Part shown: positions 344 through 24,061 of the stretch, piece by piece
Numbering within the stretch: the first letter of the stretch is position 1
Layout of the letters: the number at the start of each line of letters is the position of its first letter
IMG/VR virus record: IMGVR_UViG_3300042691_011070
Span: 1 to 37,529 of that record
Source of the DNA: a virus
Length of the DNA: 37,529 bases
Strand: one strand, 5' to 3'
Position numbers and translations under genes: made by a program
Notes under the pieces: model-generated
Seen by the model: the letters and a program-made list of their open reading frames with translations, nothing else
Told to the model about the DNA's origin: nothing
Databases searched by the model: none

Positions 344-676
344 TTATGCATAGTGTGTAGTGTTGCTGCCTAGTTCACGGGCCTTGTCAAACCATTTCTT
401 AAGTAGGCCCCGGTCCTTAAGATGGTGATACGTAAAGAAGGATCTGTGCGTGCTGGTGTCGTATGTGTTCTGAGTCGCATGCTGTATGCGATTTCTGTAG
501 TCTGACAGCGTTATCTCGACTGCTTCTCCATAGCTGCCGCTGTAACTGACGCGGACTTTCACCATGCCCCTTTCCTCGTCAAGCTTAAGGCTTACGAGTC
601 TCCTGAAGTATGCGAATGCCGAGTCCGCTTCTTGCGCCTCATTGAGTAAGACGTTTGTTTTTCCTCTGAACATCAT
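344..676 (-). CDS. Hypothetical early protein, 110 aa
   Basis: I do not recognise this protein. It starts at the first of two adjacent ATG codons, 7 nt after a perfect AAGGAGG, and overlaps the upstream amidotransferase stop codon by 4 nt (ATGA), so translation is probably coupled. The sequence is mixed alpha/beta in appearance, without signal peptide or membrane segment. The N-terminal half (EAQEADSAFAYFRRLVSL) looks helical and the middle (VKVRVSYSGSYGEAVEITL) looks like paired beta strands. It ends only 10 nt before the start of the basic 99-residue protein. Confidence 0.6.
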   Translation of the reverse strand: MMFRGKTNVLLNEAQEADSAFAYFRRLVSLKLDEERGMVKVRVSYSGSYGEAVEITLSDYRNRIQHATQNTYDTSTHRSFFTYHHLKDRGLLKKWFDKARELGSNTTHYA

Positions 677-1725
677 GCTGTAGCCTCCTTAGTTTTAGGT
701 TGAGTGATACCACCAAGATCCATCAGTACATCCTCCATGTCTACCCACAGGTCAATGATCGTCTCAGCTGCCCAGTCAGGATCATTGGCAACCTTGTCGC
801 AGATAGCCTCGGATGTGTAGTGCTTGTTCTTCTCATCTCCAAGCAACTCATAGATGAAGTGAGATGCTTTCATTGGGTGCTGCTGTGACCAGCGAAGTAC
901 GCCGTCGTAGTCCTCGAGCATCAGGCTGTTATAGCTTGAGCGAATCAAACGCTTCAGCTGAGCCGATGTCAGCCTGCCCATCTCGGCAGCAACCTTTGCC
1001 TTCTTCTTTGGCTTAGCCTTTACCTTGGGCTTGATGTTCCCCTTGTAGTCCAGTGACAGCTGCTGCTGCTCCCGCTCGATGGCATCCCACTGGCGCCATG
1101 TCGGGCTGGTTGCGAACTTGCTGTGGTCGTACTTGGGGTAGGACACAGGAGCTGGCGGCGTACCGTAACCAAACTTCCAAGGTGTCCAAGCGTATGTGTT
1201 TGAGTACCACATCCCTTCGTGATCAATGCCGCTATCACGATTGATGATGAAGCATTCGCCCTGCTGATTCATCAGAGCGAACTTGTTGCTGCGTCCGATG
1301 TGATTGCCGATCAGCTTGAGGAACGCTTCTTGGTAAAGCAACTCAGGGTGAGCGGTCAGCAATGGCTTCAGGTAGTCATTGATGTAATGCCATGTGTCGG
1401 ACATCTTGGTATCAGCTGCATTGCCGGTGGACAGGATGCCGTTGTGTGCCATCCAGATACCCGGCGTCACCTCATATGGGTGGCAGTTCTCCAAGTCGAT
1501 GTCGCCGTGCGTCTGCATGCGGAAGTGGATCACAGCCTCGTGGCATGCGACCTCTTTGTAGTACAGGTCCTCGATCTGCTGCAATGTACCTACCATCTTT
1601 ACTATCTTTACTTCGTTACCACGATTCACGATTGCGCCGAAACCGTCTCGGTTCTTGCTGTAGAAGTCTTGCAGTTGTTCCGAGCTGAAGAAACCATCCT
1701 TTGGCTGATGAATGAGAATACACAT
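673..1725 (-). CDS. Class II glutamine amidotransferase
   Basis: This is an Ntn-hydrolase-type amidotransferase, which releases ammonia from glutamine and passes it to a partner enzyme. The nucleophile would be Cys2, exposed after Met removal (MCILI). The family motifs follow in order: HFRMQTHG at 67-74 (substrate Arg), NCHPYE at 80-85 and HNG at 94-96 (oxyanion hole Asn-Gly), then a conserved-type SDT near 109-111. The catalytic domain covers about residues 2-180. After it comes a Lys/Pro-rich linker (PKVKAKPKKKAK, about 226-244) and an unrecognised C-terminal region of about 100 residues. It sits directly downstream of an amidoligase gene on the same strand, suggesting the two act together. 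The start is preceded by AAAGGAAG. Domain assignment is secure; the acceptor substrate is unknown. Confidence 0.88.
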   Translation of the reverse strand: MCILIHQPKDGFFSSEQLQDFYSKNRDGFGAIVNRGNEVKIVKMVGTLQQIEDLYYKEVACHEAVIHFRMQTHGDIDLENCHPYEVTPGIWMAHNGILSTGNAADTKMSDTWHYINDYLKPLLTAHPELLYQEAFLKLIGNHIGRSNKFALMNQQGECFIINRDSGIDHEGMWYSNTYAWTPWKFGYGTPPAPVSYPKYDHSKFATSPTWRQWDAIEREQQQLSLDYKGNIKPKVKAKPKKKAKVAAEMGRLTSAQLKRLIRSSYNSLMLEDYDGVLRWSQQHPMKASHFIYELLGDEKNKHYTSEAICDKVANDPDWAAETIIDLWVDMEDVLMDLGGITQPKTKEATA

Positions 1726-1766: not shown

Positions 1767-3251
1767 TTATGCTGCTTGGCGTTCGTTGTCATGATCGGCA
1801 TCCAATGCAAGGTAGCTGCGCAGGAACTTGGTATCGCTGCGGTTCTCGCGCTGCATGACGAACTTCTTAAACCCTATGGATGTGAAGTCTTGGATCGCAG
1901 TCACGCCCGGGGTACAGAAGGCGAGCACTGCATTGCAGAACTCCAACGCTGCCATGATTGACTCATAGCGTAGGGACCCACGGAAGATACGGAACTCAAT
2001 GGTCTTAGGGTTCTGTACATTGAGCGCTTCGTATCGCTCGCCCGTGTTCTTGTTGTGCGGTGTGAACTTAGCCATCTCATGCTTGATCCGGCAGTAGCCA
2101 CCGCTATACCGACGAGCAATCGAACGGATGAGCGCCTCGTTACGGACGTCATTCAAGAACGACTGAACCCGGTAGATCTGAGACTGGGTTACGTACTCCC
2201 TACCCACGTGGACATGGAAGCCGCAGCGTCCACCCTCATGTGAGCGCATACCCTTCTTGACCTCGTTGTTGGTCAGGAACAGAGCGAACTTCTCGCGGTG
2301 TACGTCAAGGCCAGCAGGCTGAGTGATTAGCTCGAAGCCCTCACCAATAGACCCGTCACGCTCGAAGTAGCAATACTCACCTACTTGTCCGCCCGGGTTG
2401 AGCAGCTCATGCACCCGCCCAGCTGCGACAGTTGGTTGCCCAGTCCGAACCTCGACCTCCAGCTCGCAACCGAAAGCGCGGCGGTTAGACTTGAACCAAG
2501 GCGACTCAATAACATTGAAGCCTTTGTTGCGTGAGCTGTGATAGTTGTCGATCAGTCCCTGATAAGGACTCCAGCTGGTATCGTGGTAGATCTGACGCCG
2601 CGCATCATAGACAACGTTGGATCTGCGGCGGTCATGTATCTGAGTCGTTTGCCCATGCACAAAGACAGGAACTGCGAACTCAGTGAGGACCAAATATCCA
2701 TGTGCATCTTCGACTCGAGCGCCATCGTTCATTAACGTTTGTGCGCAGGCACTGCAGCATGTCTCTTGGCGAGCGTACTCGGTGGCATTGCCCTGCAGAA
2801 CTCTTCTGCGTTCGCCTCTTTCGAGGTGACCACATTCCTCTCGTTGAATGCTGTGCTTCTGTGCTACGCCGAGCATCCATTCCTCTTGGCCTTGCTCTGC
2901 AAACTTAGGCAGGTACTCTTCAATCAGTGGAACTACATTGACTCCGCTATCTGTGAGGCGGTCACGCTTGATGTAATCCATCAAGAAAGTGATACGCAAG
3001 CAGGACTGCGGATGGGTACGCTTATACTTCTGAAGCCTGTCTCTGATATCGTCAGGCACGGAGCCGAAAGCAATGACGTCTGATACAACGATGGCGTCGA
3101 TCAGTACAGCCCACTTGTTATCGCCTACTCTGTGGCCGCTTGCCCGAGAGATAGACTTGAGCATTCGCTTGAGCAACATATCAAGGAATGTTTCGCGCTG
3201 GAATCCCGTCGCCAACAACCGCTGACGGGCATAGGTGTATAGCTGGATCAT
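1767..3251 (-). CDS. Amidoligase with glutamine-synthetase-like fold
   Basis: The C-terminal half carries the motif series of Amidoligase_2-type enzymes (glutamine synthetase fold), which form amide bonds using ATP: FGCELEVE (about 260-267), RDGSIG (298-303), CGFHVHVG (343-350), RYEALN (406-411) and TIEFRIFRGS (417-426). The acidic and His residues of these motifs would bind metal and nucleotide. The N-terminal 250 residues are unrecognised but hold a Cys/His cluster (C140, H142, C165, C166, C169) that could bind zinc. I chose the internal ATG because AAGGAG lies 6 nt before it; an upstream in-frame ATG at 3287 has no such site. Length is 494 residues. It is followed by the class II glutamine amidotransferase, a known partner type for these ligases. 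The substrate is not readable from sequence. Confidence 0.85.
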   Translation of the reverse strand: MIQLYTYARQRLLATGFQRETFLDMLLKRMLKSISRASGHRVGDNKWAVLIDAIVVSDVIAFGSVPDDIRDRLQKYKRTHPQSCLRITFLMDYIKRDRLTDSGVNVVPLIEEYLPKFAEQGQEEWMLGVAQKHSIQREECGHLERGERRRVLQGNATEYARQETCCSACAQTLMNDGARVEDAHGYLVLTEFAVPVFVHGQTTQIHDRRRSNVVYDARRQIYHDTSWSPYQGLIDNYHSSRNKGFNVIESPWFKSNRRAFGCELEVEVRTGQPTVAAGRVHELLNPGGQVGEYCYFERDGSIGEGFELITQPAGLDVHREKFALFLTNNEVKKGMRSHEGGRCGFHVHVGREYVTQSQIYRVQSFLNDVRNEALIRSIARRYSGGYCRIKHEMAKFTPHNKNTGERYEALNVQNPKTIEFRIFRGSLRYESIMAALEFCNAVLAFCTPGVTAIQDFTSIGFKKFVMQRENRSDTKFLRSYLALDADHDNERQAA

Positions 3252-3279
3252 GTGAATCTCCTTAAGGTTGAAATATAGA

Positions 3280-3330
3280 AGAGGCAACCGTCCCCTTCAC
3301 TGAAAGTGAGGGGCGGGTGCCGGTGGTTGT
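3280..3330 (-). promoter_or_regulatory. Leader hairpin element L1
   Basis: In the 5' leader of the amidoligase gene a stem of CCCC plus TCAC pairs with GTGA plus GGGG (3292-3313), with a single bulged T and a 5-nt loop. CAACC and GGTTG on either side can pair as an outer stem. A close copy stands before the gene starting at 4803 and a looser one before the gene starting at 7309. There is no T-run, so it is not a simple terminator. The hairpin overlaps the stop codon of the upstream 112-residue gene. An RNA processing or stabilising hairpin (RNase III-like) is the most natural guess. Confidence 0.5.
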
Positions 3331-3635: not shown

Positions 3636-3973
3636 CTTTCCTCCTTTGCAATACGTTCGTAAGCGTTATCAATGTGAGCGCACAACTTCTCAGCCCAGTC
3701 CATCATCTCTTTCTCTTTCTCATCGGAGAACCCGTAGCCTTCGATGATGCAGTCGGCAGCGAATGACATCGTGCCGAGCAGCTGGTCACGCATGCTCTCT
3801 GCTTGGGATGGATGCAGGTACTGCGCATAGGTCGCAGTCATCCGAGTCAGATGCATGCCCATTAGGAGAACCGTCACCGTCTTGGCGTAGCTGTCTCCGT
3901 TGATATTGCGGATCGACTGAATGCTCTCGTCAATCTTTGATCGTGCCTCCTTGAGTAGTCTGTGCTCATGCAT
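3632..3973 (-). CDS. Hypothetical helical early protein, 113 aa
   Basis: I do not recognise this protein. It is almost entirely helical in character, with amphipathic stretches such as RLLKEARSKIDESIQSI at the start and DEKEKEMMDWAEKLCAHI near the end. It lacks signal and membrane segments. The start has GGGAG about 7 nt upstream. It overlaps the previous gene by 8 nt and the next by 4 nt, so it belongs to one translationally coupled chain. A small alpha-helical bundle is the most that can be said. Confidence 0.6.
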   Translation of the reverse strand: MHEHRLLKEARSKIDESIQSIRNINGDSYAKTVTVLLMGMHLTRMTATYAQYLHPSQAESMRDQLLGTMSFAADCIIEGYGFSDEKEKEMMDWAEKLCAHIDNAYERIAKEER

Positions 3974-4136
3974 ATGGATCTCCCATCTGTTCGTAGTCTT
4001 GTGCCATCAGTCGATAGCATTCTTGTAACTCCTCATCGGTCAGATCAGTTGATGACCAGCCGACGGGAACCCTTGGCGCCACACAATCACGAGTCTCGTT
4101 CAGTTCCTGAGGAGACCAGATCATTTGATTGTTCAT
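3966..4136 (-). CDS. Hypothetical small protein, 56 aa
   Basis: This is a small acidic protein with a clear coding appearance (VPVGWSSTDLTDEELQECY near the middle). I chose the internal ATG because AAAGGAAG precedes it by 5 nt; upstream in-frame ATGs at 4178 and 4169 have no ribosome binding site and would overlap the neighbour even more. With this start it overlaps the preceding gene by 50 nt in a different frame. Function unknown. Confidence 0.5.
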   Translation of the reverse strand: MNNQMIWSPQELNETRDCVAPRVPVGWSSTDLTDEELQECYRLMAQDYEQMGDPYA

Positions 4137-4260
4137 TACGTCTTCCTTTCTTGGTTGGTTTGAACCCATGCTTAGCAAAGGTTTTACGGATGTCGGTATC
4201 TCTTGCGTTGGTGTACTTCCAGCGCCTGTCCCATACCGAAGGGAGTACTGGCTTTGTCAT
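4087..4260 (-). CDS. Hypothetical small basic protein, 57 aa
   Basis: This small basic protein (WDRRWKYTNARDTDIRKTFA, then KPTKKGRRN) starts 5 nt after GGAGG and overlaps the stop of the CxxC protein gene by ATGA. The basic, aromatic composition suggests contact with nucleic acid, but there is no recognised domain. Its last 16 codons overlap the next gene in another frame; the ribosome binding site and start overlap support it as real. Confidence 0.5.
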   Translation of the reverse strand: MTKPVLPSVWDRRWKYTNARDTDIRKTFAKHGFKPTKKGRRNEQSNDLVSSGTERDS

Positions 4261-6319: not shown

Positions 6320-6389
6320 GTTGGTCTCCTAATCCGGAATGTGAGTACGGGAATATCGGAAGCTGGCAATCCTGCCGCTCCGAAGTTTT

Positions 6390-6416
6390 AAAAAAACTGG
6401 GAGTCCGAAGACCCCC
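6390..6416 (-). terminator. Rho-independent terminator with UUCG loop
   Basis: On the minus strand GGGGGTC and GACTCCC (one G.U pair) close a TTCG tetraloop and are followed by AG and seven T. This is a textbook intrinsic terminator. It stands directly after the stop of the 26-residue gene and before the 46-residue gene, so it divides the leftward operon and would lower or separate expression of everything downstream, including the amidoligase pair. Confidence 0.85.
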
Positions 6417-6422
6417 GATTGA

Positions 6423-6807: not shown

Positions 6808-6828
6808 GTTGTTCTCCTGATAAGTAGC

Positions 6829-6909
6829 AGCAAGGAGGATTTACCCAGCTTGAGCTGGCGACCTCCTGCTGACCTAAGGATTTACCTAGCTTCTGCTAGC
6901 GACCTTAGG
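6829..6909 (-). ncRNA. Tandem structured hairpins with shared internal loop
   Basis: Two consecutive hairpins lie in the leader of the 72-residue membrane protein gene. Hairpin A (6829-6870): outer stem AGGAGG/CCTCCT, inner stem CCAGC/GCTGG. Hairpin B (6873-6909): outer stem CTAAGG/CCTTAG, inner stem CTAGC/GCTAG. Both have the same asymmetric internal loop, ATTTAC opposite CGA (TCG opposite GTAAAT on the minus strand), and four-base end loops that differ. The stems differ by paired changes while the internal loop is invariant, which is what selection on RNA structure produces. The minus strand is the transcribed one here. Function unknown. Confidence 0.6.
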
Positions 6910-6925
6910 ATTTTGATAACGGGTT

Positions 6926-6959
6926 AAAAGCGGGAAAGCCCTTGAACAAACCCTCCCGC
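6926..6959 (-). terminator. Possible terminator after first leftward gene
   Basis: On the minus strand a 6-bp stem (GCGGGA/TCCCGC) with an 18-nt loop is followed by TTTT. It lies just after the stop of the 108-residue gene and before the tandem hairpins. The long loop and short T-run make it a weak or conditional terminator. Confidence 0.4.
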
Positions 6960-6982
6960 GTATGCCTAAGACAGTAGATAGA

Positions 6983-7309
6983 TTACTGAGCCTTAGAACA
7001 GAACATAGAACGGAGAATCATGGCGCCATCCAGTACCTTTGCATTCTTAACGCCTGCACCATCGATGAGTGCCAAAGCATCCAGAACCTTCTGAGTCATC
7101 TCCACCTCGGATGAAGTCATACGTGCCAAGACTCGACCACCCTTCGCCTTCAGCTGCTCCTTATCACGCTTGGATGCTGCTGCGTTGCGAATTACACAAG
7201 AAGCTTCCCAAGACGTAGTTGGCATTGAACCCGTAACGATTCCACGGTCCATGAGTGCCTGAATGCGACCTTGCTGAGCAGGAGAGATTGGTTTGATTTG
7301 CTGTGTCAT
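6983..7309 (-). CDS. First leftward early protein, 108 aa, unknown
   Basis: This is the first gene of the leftward arm, next to the control region. AAGGAG lies 7 nt before the ATG and leader hairpin L3 stands upstream. The sequence is helical and mildly basic (SPAQQGRIQALMDRGIVTGS; VIRNAAASKRDKEQLKAKGG) with no membrane or signal segment. Position and the well-formed leader suggest a highly expressed immediate-early protein, a class that often targets host functions. No family recognised. Confidence 0.6.
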   Translation of the reverse strand: MTQQIKPISPAQQGRIQALMDRGIVTGSMPTTSWEASCVIRNAAASKRDKEQLKAKGGRVLARMTSSEVEMTQKVLDALALIDGAGVKNAKVLDGAMILRSMFCSKAQ

Positions 7310-8030: not shown

Positions 8031-8105
8031 CGCGGAGTAGCGCAGCGGTAGAGCGGCGGACTCATAATCCGCAGGTCGGTGGTTCGATTCCATCCTCCGC
8101 AACCA
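8031..8105 (+). tRNA. tRNA with CAU anticodon, initiator-like (fMet-type)
   Basis: A complete 75-nt cloverleaf with encoded CCA. The acceptor stem has six pairs (GCGGAG/CTCCGC) below a C1.A72 mismatch. The anticodon arm is GCGGA-CTCATAA-TCCGC, giving CAU, and the T arm is GGTGG-TTCGATT-CCATC. A73 is the discriminator base. The C1.A72 mismatch is the formylation signal of bacterial initiator tRNA. However, of the three G:C pairs expected at 29-31/39-41 only two are present (A31:U39), the D stem has elongator-like C11:G24, and G12.A23 is mismatched. It is therefore an initiator-like hybrid rather than a clear copy of a host tRNA. It lies just upstream of the late genes. Confidence 0.9.
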
Positions 8106-22071: not shown

Positions 22072-22608
22072 ATGTTCGCGCCGTTCCCTCTTAATATCGA
22101 CACTAAGGATGTTTTCTTGGCTGTTGAGCAACTGTTTTGCAACGGTGAGTACATGAAACAGCAGAAGTACGGCGTTGCGCTTCTGAGACAGAAGTCGTTC
22201 ACATCTGTTCCAAACCGCGTGTACGACACCAAAGAGGAAGATGAGAAACGAGTCATTGCGCAGCTCCCGGATAAACTACTAGAGATCGAGGTCCCTCGGC
22301 TTTGGGTGCTGAACATTCAGGCCACCCATGACGAAAAGGTAATGCTTGCTCCGCATACTGATATTGGGCGAGTCACCACTGTCAACTTCTACAGCAACAC
22401 GAACGGAGAACGCACCTGCTTCTACGAGTATGGTGCGGGCGGTTCAATCAAAGAGATAGGTAGCTTTGTTGCCAAGGATGGAGAAGCATGGGTTCTTGAT
22501 GTGAGTAAGCCTCATGGGGTAGAGCTAATACCCGGGAAAACGCGTCGAGTTCTGTCTCTTTCATTTCTCACAACTCCTTACGAGCGCGTGATGGAAGCGC
22601 TTTCATGA
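22072..22608 (+). CDS. 2OG-Fe(II) oxygenase-like protein (first of two)
   Basis: The double-stranded beta-helix core shows a plausible Fe(II) and 2-oxoglutarate triad: HTD (H95, D97) in LAPHTDIGRVTTVNFYSN, distal H148 in VSKPHGVELI, and an Arg at 158-159 before LSLSF for the 2OG carboxylate. Such enzymes hydroxylate or demethylate proteins, nucleic acids or small molecules. AAGGAG precedes the ATG. It is directly coupled (TCATGATG) to the desaturase gene, which suggests related substrates or joint regulation. Length 178 is small but normal for phage members. The substrate is unknown. Confidence 0.75.
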   Translation: MFAPFPLNIDTKDVFLAVEQLFCNGEYMKQQKYGVALLRQKSFTSVPNRVYDTKEEDEKRVIAQLPDKLLEIEVPRLWVLNIQATHDEKVMLAPHTDIGRVTTVNFYSNTNGERTCFYEYGAGGSIKEIGSFVAKDGEAWVLDVSKPHGVELIPGKTRRVLSLSFLTTPYERVMEALS

Positions 22609-23372
22609 TGCGATTGTCGGAGTTTACGAAGCTGCGCCTCACTATGTTGATGGTGCATATCGCCGCAGTCTTCGGGGTGGTTCTGCTTTGGGATCCAAAG
22701 TGGCTGTTGTTAAGTGCCGCGTGCAGCGTTCTTTTTCTTTGGGTCGGGCAGGAGATGTACTGCCACCGTTATCTGTGCCACAGGTCGTTCAAGATGCCAT
22801 TGTGGGCGCAAAGACTGTGCGCTGTTCTATCGATATACAACTTGTACGGAAACCCGATCGGGATTGCGGCAACGCACACTACACACCACAAGTACTCTGA
22901 CACGGACCGCGACCCGCATCCTTCTTCCACCCCTTGGCAATCGTGGTTCTGGGTATCGAAGAACTTTGGAAAGTCGATTGACCAAGGGACGGCAAAGCGC
23001 CTAATGCAGGATCCTTGGTTGAACTTCATGGCGCGGCACTACCTTAAAATCTACCTGAGCACTCTGTTCGTGATAGGTCTGGTTAGCCTGAAAGCGCTAG
23101 TGTACGGGCTGCTCGTTACGCATGTGTACGCCTTTTTTGCAAACGGGCTGGTGACTGTTTTTTGCCACGGCAAAGGCTACAGAACGCATGACACGCGAGA
23201 CACCTCAACCAACAACCATTGGGTGAACTTGATGCTGGGGTGGAATGGGGTCGCGTTCCACAACAACCATCACGCAAAGCCTACGCGGTTCACAACCTCA
23301 GAGAGTCGGAGTGAGGTCGATTTGATCGGTGTAATTATTCGGGTTCTGTTTGCCAAAGAAAAGGCGTTATGA
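22605..23372 (+). CDS. Fatty acid desaturase
   Basis: This is an integral-membrane di-iron desaturase of the acyl-CoA / acyl-lipid delta-9 type, which introduces a double bond into an acyl chain using O2 and electrons. The three His boxes are present: HRYLCH (54-59), HTTHH (91-95, within HTTHHKYSDTDRDPH) and HNNHH (219-223). NNH at 203-205 lies before box 3, as in stearoyl-CoA desaturases. Hydrophobic segments lie at about 11-29, 32-48 and 150-185. At 255 residues it is short but has the complete catalytic set. Start and stop overlap the flanking oxygenase genes. A desaturase in a podovirus tail/lysis region is unusual. No ferredoxin or cytochrome b5 domain is present, so host electron donors would be needed. 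Confidence 0.9.
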   Translation: MMRLSEFTKLRLTMLMVHIAAVFGVVLLWDPKWLLLSAACSVLFLWVGQEMYCHRYLCHRSFKMPLWAQRLCAVLSIYNLYGNPIGIAATHTTHHKYSDTDRDPHPSSTPWQSWFWVSKNFGKSIDQGTAKRLMQDPWLNFMARHYLKIYLSTLFVIGLVSLKALVYGLLVTHVYAFFANGLVTVFCHGKGYRTHDTRDTSTNNHWVNLMLGWNGVAFHNNHHAKPTRFTTSESRSEVDLIGVIIRVLFAKEKAL

Positions 23373-24061
23373 AGTGCTCATTAAACTACATGTTTCCGAC
23401 TGCAGTAGGCAGTTTTGAAAGCGACAACCACAAAGAGTACAAGCGAATTTTTATGGATCGCCTCCCTGAGCATTGCATTCATCATGAGGGTGGCGGGCTA
23501 ATTGCCGGGGAAAGTAGCGGTAAGGTTTATGTGCACACTGACTCAGAGTTAGAAGGACTCTTCCGTTTTATTTCTGCTGGTGTCGCGGCGTACCTTGATC
23601 AGCTTGCGTTCGACCGCTCAAGAGTTGATATCAACATCGTCAAGACTTGGGTCAGCGCAACAAACAACAACACCGTTACTCCAGTGCATGCACACGCCAC
23701 AAGTCACTTGTCGTTTGTGTACTACATGAACATGCCCAAAGAGGCAGACGCCATAGCGTTCCAGATTCCAGCGTCGCCAAATGAGCCATTCTATGGAGCG
23801 TTTGGAGCATCAACACCGAGGCAGCGCTCATTGGTGCTGGATAGGAATGCGCTAAACGCGAACCAGTCTGTGCTAACGGTAGAAGAGGGGCAGCTGCTTG
23901 TGTTCCCAAGTCACTTGATGCACGGCACAGTGAAATTGGGCGACATGGGTGATGAGACAAGAATCTCGCTGGCAGGGGATGTTTTGTTAGTGTTCAACGA
24001 GGAGGCCCCGAACTATGCGACCGGTGTGTTCGACCCGCGAACATGGAGAGTGTTTAACTAG
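23369..24061 (+). CDS. 2OG-Fe(II) oxygenase (second of two)
   Basis: The pattern TPVHAHATSHLSFVYYMNMP (H107, H109, H113) and later GQLLVFPSHLMHGT (H182, H185), then DETRISLAGDV (R198), fits the 2OG-Fe(II) oxygenase family common in marine and freshwater phages. In that family HxH.....LS.VYY begins the core and an H / R.S pair ends it. The exact iron ligands need alignment. Its ATG overlaps the desaturase stop (ATGA). Substrate unknown; an acyl-chain, lipid or fibre-protein target would suit the context, but this is inference. Confidence 0.8.
   Translation: MKCSLNYMFPTAVGSFESDNHKEYKRIFMDRLPEHCIHHEGGGLIAGESSGKVYVHTDSELEGLFRFISAGVAAYLDQLAFDRSRVDINIVKTWVSATNNNTVTPVHAHATSHLSFVYYMNMPKEADAIAFQIPASPNEPFYGAFGASTPRQRSLVLDRNALNANQSVLTVEEGQLLVFPSHLMHGTVKLGDMGDETRISLAGDVLLVFNEEAPNYATGVFDPRTWRVFN

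Follow-up and report, generated by a model that had tools for sequence, protein, structure and literature searches.

RNAs that regulate elongating RNA polymerase without a protein are, to our knowledge, very few, namely put and possibly EAR. The put RNA of HK022 suppresses pausing and termination by binding the zinc-binding domain of the RNA polymerase beta' subunit. It has in its stem II an internal loop of three non-canonical pairs and three unpaired bases, and the 3' strand of this loop touches RNA polymerase (PMC9378689). LoaP-dfn antitermination in Bacillus needs a small RNA hairpin in the operon leader (PMC12691694). PeSL cassettes of T4-type phages, each an early promoter combined with a terminator stem-loop and present at high density, are small stem-loop modules that shuffle among phage intergenic regions (PMC4503421). 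REP and BIME sequences are tandem extragenic hairpins with an internal mismatch and are apparently mobile; REPs are high-copy sequences with a GTAG/CGTC tag, and BIMEs alternate in orientation.

The element described here is a pair of hairpins found in the window, which is the whole stretch of 37,529 nucleotides analysed and comes from a freshwater phage, and in 13 IMG/VR contigs (contigs are cited by L and G numbers). Its parts and neighbours in the window are the following.

6983-7309, minus strand: first gene of the leftward operon, which encodes a 108-aa protein and is always 5' of the element
6926-6960, minus strand: separate conserved hairpin GCGGG..GTTC..CCCGC just after the 108-aa gene, at the same place in L004-L030
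6825-6912, minus strand: whole conserved cassette of 88 bp, AATCC...GCTGCTA on this strand, delimited by the ungapped 12-row alignment A4 and by the ends of the homology between the window and L030
6873-6909, minus strand: hairpin 1 (fold and covarying pairs), with a 7-bp outer stem CCUAAGG/CCUUAGG, loop UCG/GUAAAU, inner stem CUAGC/GCUAG and tetraloop AGAA
6900-6902, minus strand: UCG side of the hairpin 1 internal loop, invariant
6880-6885, minus strand: GUAAAU side of the hairpin 1 internal loop, invariant
6828-6871, minus strand: hairpin 2 (fold and covarying pairs), with foot CAGC/GCUG, a bulged U, AGGAGG/CCUCCU, loop UCG/GUAAAU, inner stem CCAGC/GCUGG and tetraloop UCAA
6859-6861, minus strand: UCG side of the hairpin 2 internal loop, invariant
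6839-6844, minus strand: GUAAAU side of the hairpin 2 internal loop, invariant
6818-6823 (approximate), minus strand: downstream copy of the direct repeat, TTATCA; the upstream copy is just past 6912, at about 6914-6919
6388-6418, minus strand: strong intrinsic terminator of the same operon, downstream of the element (terminator scan)

Similarity to put and other described elements

The putL site of HK022 was located using the position numbers of Hwang et al. 2022 (PMC9378689), and its placement was checked against the annotated putL and putR of HK75, HK639 and O276. Both RNAs are built by two stem-loops, in about 70 nt in put and in 88 bp in the element. The asymmetric loop of put stem II, GGCGG/GGCAAU, is invariant while its outer stem varies freely, so that two stem-loops, an invariant internal loop and a covarying outer stem are found in put and in the element, and the 3' side of the loop ends with AAU in both (GGCAAU in put, GUAAAU in the element). 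The putR site directly follows cro, the gene that opens its operon, and the element likewise follows the first gene of an early operon in all its contexts; both are patchy among related phages. They differ in that put stem I, which has a triplex, is unlike stem II, whereas the two hairpins of the element share one design, and in that the element is present in one copy per genome, unlike put with putL and putR. A covariance model of eight put sites (R2), which gave 52-101 bits for put itself, had no above-chance match in the window or its relatives, and the model of the element (R1) found no put match above chance. As the models do not cross-match, a similarity of design is claimed and not membership in put; together with the behaviour of terminators described below, this is why the element is not filed as put.

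The likeness to LoaP-dfn is that of a small RNA hairpin structure within an operon, but LoaP-dfn is a single UNCG hairpin that works with a NusG paralogue, while the element consists of a pair of hairpins, each with an internal loop, and the search for a linked factor found none. Unlike PeSLs, the element is single-copy and carries neither a recognised promoter nor a U-tract.

Structure and operon context

The initial annotation had described two hairpins at 6829-6909, and both the coordinates and the description were right, since the minus strand folds there into two hairpins with -36.3 kcal/mol against -22.5 +/- 3.2 for shuffled sequences (z -4.35, no shuffle as stable); the complementary plus strand, as it must, also folds (z -4.5). 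Only the extent was adjusted, because the conserved unit is slightly bigger and covers 6825-6912. The two hairpins follow a common plan of outer stem, UCG, 5-bp inner stem, 4-nt loop, GUAAAU and outer stem, and both window tetraloops end in AA. A single unpaired U separates hairpin 1 from hairpin 2, in which one U bulges out close to the foot. These are the only hairpins with this exact geometry on the minus strand of the window, where shuffles have a mean of 0.71 per strand; the plus strand has two, with loops unrelated to UCG/GUAAAU. In the window, no U-run is present 3' of either hairpin and the element is not among the sites of the terminator scan. Hairpin 2 contains an SD-like AGGAGG, which no start codon follows.

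On the minus strand, the genes between 7309 and 34 make up a single block, which ends at a bidirectional terminator (2-35). The strong terminator of this operon, which had also been noticed in the initial annotation, is the one at 6388-6418, and another terminator-like site of the block is at 5638-5608. The promoter scan of the window gave two promoter-like sites against six in shuffles, which is not above chance. A tRNA-Met (CAT) gene is found at 8031-8105 on the plus strand, between the divergent early and late blocks.

Across about six contexts, the element is near the 5' end of the early operon, after the first gene and in the operon sense. It usually lies 69-81 nt past the stop codon of the 108-aa gene, and in L014 it is 470 nt away, beyond another gene. 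The gene 3' of it varies, being a 72-aa membrane protein gene in the window, other genes in L005 and L008 and an unrelated gene in L014. The earlier description of the pair as the leader of small membrane protein genes thus holds for the window and not for the family, because the L014 element follows a membrane protein gene and that of L013 follows an extra small ORF. This variability of the downstream gene argues against a one-gene switch and for an action on the whole transcript or on the polymerase.

The GCGGG..CCCGC hairpin at 6926-6960 occurs in relatives with and without the element. It was dropped as a terminator candidate because the U-tail is missing in part of the family (L013, L014, L019 and L030), and it may be another RNA element. 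A compound terminator was also observed, in which a shared block CCGTAGG..CCTACGG is combined with GGGCGGCTATCC..GGGTAGTCGCTC and a T-run (L013 1913-1998; L019 6880-6970; L062); it is immediately 3' of the element in L013 and L019, and in L062 it occurs without the element.

Conservation and distribution

Searching with the upstream 108-aa protein (6983-7309) retrieved 15 viral contigs at first and 25 later, with alignment, and a regular-expression search found the tandem pair 3' of the 108-aa gene in most of the first 15. An independent DNA-pattern scan of IMG/VR gave 13 contigs, all of them true members (13/13) and three of them new. In each of the 13 IMG/VR members the 108-aa gene is upstream, and each genome has exactly one pair, in the operon sense and with loops 41 nt apart. 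No lone hairpins were found in the relatives by a single-hairpin model search.

The internal loop UCG/GUAAAU is identical in 28 of 28 hairpins, whose stems have compensatory changes; since the DNA patterns used to find members allow no loop change, the loop was also tested in reverse. Patterns with fixed stems and a free loop retrieved the same members, with the same loop, and one loop-less chance match, so the freely changing loops that the initial annotation had named as evidence against a functional RNA were not found. Among the eight distinct sequences, 95.8% of cells are paired and seven pairs are changed on both sides. The covariation score is 0.208 against 0.119 for shuffled alignments (reached by 0 of 500), and slid partners give at most 0.089. 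For the stack of hairpins 1 and 2 of all members (ten distinct sequences), a score of 0.446 against 0.171 was obtained. In L019 the outer stem of hairpin 1 is replaced (CCUAAGG to ACCUAGG) with complete pairing. Hairpin 2 of L014 (GGUCGCUAGUACACCUAGUGUAAAUCC) is the only partly decayed copy, and its loop letters are intact. On the gene-sense strand there are five G-U cells and one A-C cell, an excess which weakly suggests that the sense-strand RNA is selected. The functional RNA first proposed from the window alone is therefore borne out by further examples in related phage contigs, by stems that covary against shuffled and slid controls and by a constant loop; in our judgement, the existence of the RNA element and its selection are close to certain.

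That the pair matches no known riboswitch was confirmed by an Rfam scan. At gathering thresholds the sole match in the window was the tRNA, and at E 10 nothing fell on the element and one sub-threshold match was at its edge. Relaxed DNA patterns gave 8 and 41 extra loci in viral contigs, all judged by pairing to be chance; the tandem pattern gave 15 matches in GTDB genomes, none of them (0/15) with both stems; covariance models against about 300-400 genomes of one bacterial phylum gave no match or roughly the number expected by chance; and blast searches of INPHARED phages with the region and with the element gave no match. As looser searches of viral contigs, bacterial genomes, phage records and Rfam yield only chance matches, the hairpin pair is a clade-restricted RNA family that is absent from Rfam.

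Exchange of the cassette between phages

Over its 88 bp the window element shares 97.7% identity with that of L030, but the adjoining 30-bp flanks agree at 30% and 20%, and the two upstream genes have 64% DNA identity. Between L030 and L013 the upstream genes share 81% identity and the elements only 84%. These discordant identities indicate that the element and the gene have different histories. On either side of the site, kilobases of G008 and G015 sequence are 94-96% identical, and the element is cleanly present in G008 and absent from G015. The G008 element is flanked by imperfect direct repeats of 8-10 bp, CAAGTTATCA and CAACTTATCA, and the empty site of G015 has one copy; judged from the sequences, the pattern fits a target-duplicating insertion and a deletion between repeats equally. 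Comparison of the flanks found no direct repeat in the L013/L014/L019/L030 group. By these comparisons the element behaves as a discrete cassette of about 88 bp that has moved between phages, which is new here and could not be seen in the window alone. It is also dispensable, because close relatives do without it; in ten element-free relatives the sequence covers the site.

Other structured-looking inserts occupy the same intergenic site in L006 (4088-4247, about 146 nt) and in L062 (5380-5490, hairpin-rich), which suggests that the site may be a hotspot for small modules.

Search for a partner protein

No phage protein of the early operon tracks with the element among the window, G008, G015 and the other relatives compared. 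G008, which has the element, and G015, which lacks it, carry the same homologues of the window early-operon genes where both contigs cover them. The 70-aa early protein p70 (3966-4178, minus strand), which is 63-74% conserved between subclades and better conserved than most of its neighbours, looked linked at first, and was rejected since it is present in L007 without the element and absent from G008 with it. The 108-aa protein was also rejected as a reader of the element, being present in ten element-free relatives and having a model that matches no known fold. It is well conserved (PTTSWEAS..IR..ASKRDK..GGRVLARMT) and confidently predicted to be helical (pLDDT 90.5), with no match in PDB, BFVD (predicted fold), Pfam or PHROGs. 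The absence of a linked phage factor mildly favours a host target.

Some other genes of the window have recognisable products. An amidoligase-like protein (1767-3287, minus strand; PF12224, E 2.6e-8) is encoded in the early operon and is followed by a gene (673-1725, minus strand) with a weak, below-cutoff match to class-II glutamine amidotransferases; homologues of this pair are found in element-bearing and element-free relatives alike. Among the late genes, a fatty acid desaturase (22605-23372, plus strand; PF00487, E 2.5e-15) adjoins a putative 2OG-Fe(II) oxygenase (23369-24061, plus strand; PF13759, E 6.8e-15), and the two are possible auxiliary metabolic genes.

Mode of action

The best mechanism in our analysis is a cis-acting RNA that would dock on elongating RNA polymerase as HK022 put does, to which a probability of about 0.35 is given, and which we rank marginally above a protein-binding site. 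In the emerging transcript, the two hairpins would form a rigid pair that meets the host transcription machinery, most probably RNA polymerase itself, through its invariant loops. The complex of RNA and polymerase would then suppress pausing or termination further along the operon, in a put-like manner and not as a put homologue. Such an action in cis on the whole transcript would explain why the downstream genes vary, why no linked phage protein is needed and how the module can be gained and lost. Docking of this kind is supported by the architecture and by a location behind the first early-operon gene. It predicts that terminators follow the element and are rarer without it, and this association was not seen: a strong terminator is present 3' of the element in the window, L008, L013, L019 and L030, none was detected after it in L005 and L006, and terminators also occur without it in L007, L010, L062 and L054. 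The probability is kept at this level mainly because terminators fail to track the element. The lack of a cross-match between the models, the likeness of the two hairpins, unlike those of put, and the absence of the element from close relatives also count against it.

A serious, if tentative, alternative is that the pair is an mRNA site for a dimeric RNA-binding protein of the host or phage, which would control how stable the early mRNA is or how it is processed, or else the translation of downstream genes. The invariant loop, the covarying stems and the fixed 41-nt spacing suit a dimeric reader as well as RNA polymerase, and in most contexts the element is within the 5' UTRs of small genes; however, no downstream gene is common to all contexts (L014, L013, L005 and L008 differ), and the early operon offers no phage protein that accompanies the element.

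It is unlikely that the pair is a mobile DNA hairpin of the REP/BIME or MITE type, spread by recognition of single-stranded DNA and only incidentally transcribed. The transfer of a discrete cassette between unrelated flanks, as in the window and L030, and the precise presence and absence with imperfect repeats would be expected from such an element, but it occurs as one pair in direct orientation per genome, unlike high-copy REPs, and has no conserved tag. GTAG is beside the foot only where the flank reads CTAC and is missing in L005, L013, L014, L019 and L030, the L013/L014/L019/L030 group has no direct repeat, and the G-U excess is on the sense strand. A little less probable still is a protector of mRNA, in which the tandem hairpins would be a barrier to exonucleases that stabilises either the 108-aa message or a processed downstream message. 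The usual distance of the element from the 108-aa stop codon would suit this role, although plain stems would suffice for it and the invariant loop would be left unexplained, the L014 element lies past another gene, and the 108-aa gene is already trailed by another conserved hairpin. A tandem metabolite aptamer, which the duplicated loop and the leader position in the window might recall, is very improbable, because the loops are short and simple, no expression platform is common to the contexts, the downstream gene is inconsistent and Rfam has no match on the element even at E 10.

In a further-reaching reading, which we consider doubtful, the element would be an independently evolved second class of natural RNA that alone modifies elongating polymerase, in the form of a portable 88-bp cassette exchanged by environmental phages. 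A compact, well-conserved and horizontally moving candidate makes the prevalence of polymerase-acting RNAs directly testable, with the advantages of a clear consensus, natural empty-site controls (G008 and G015) and an obvious loop to mutate. Even if it is read by a protein, the element is still a new family of structured RNA, and it clearly illustrates that phages trade regulatory RNA modules.
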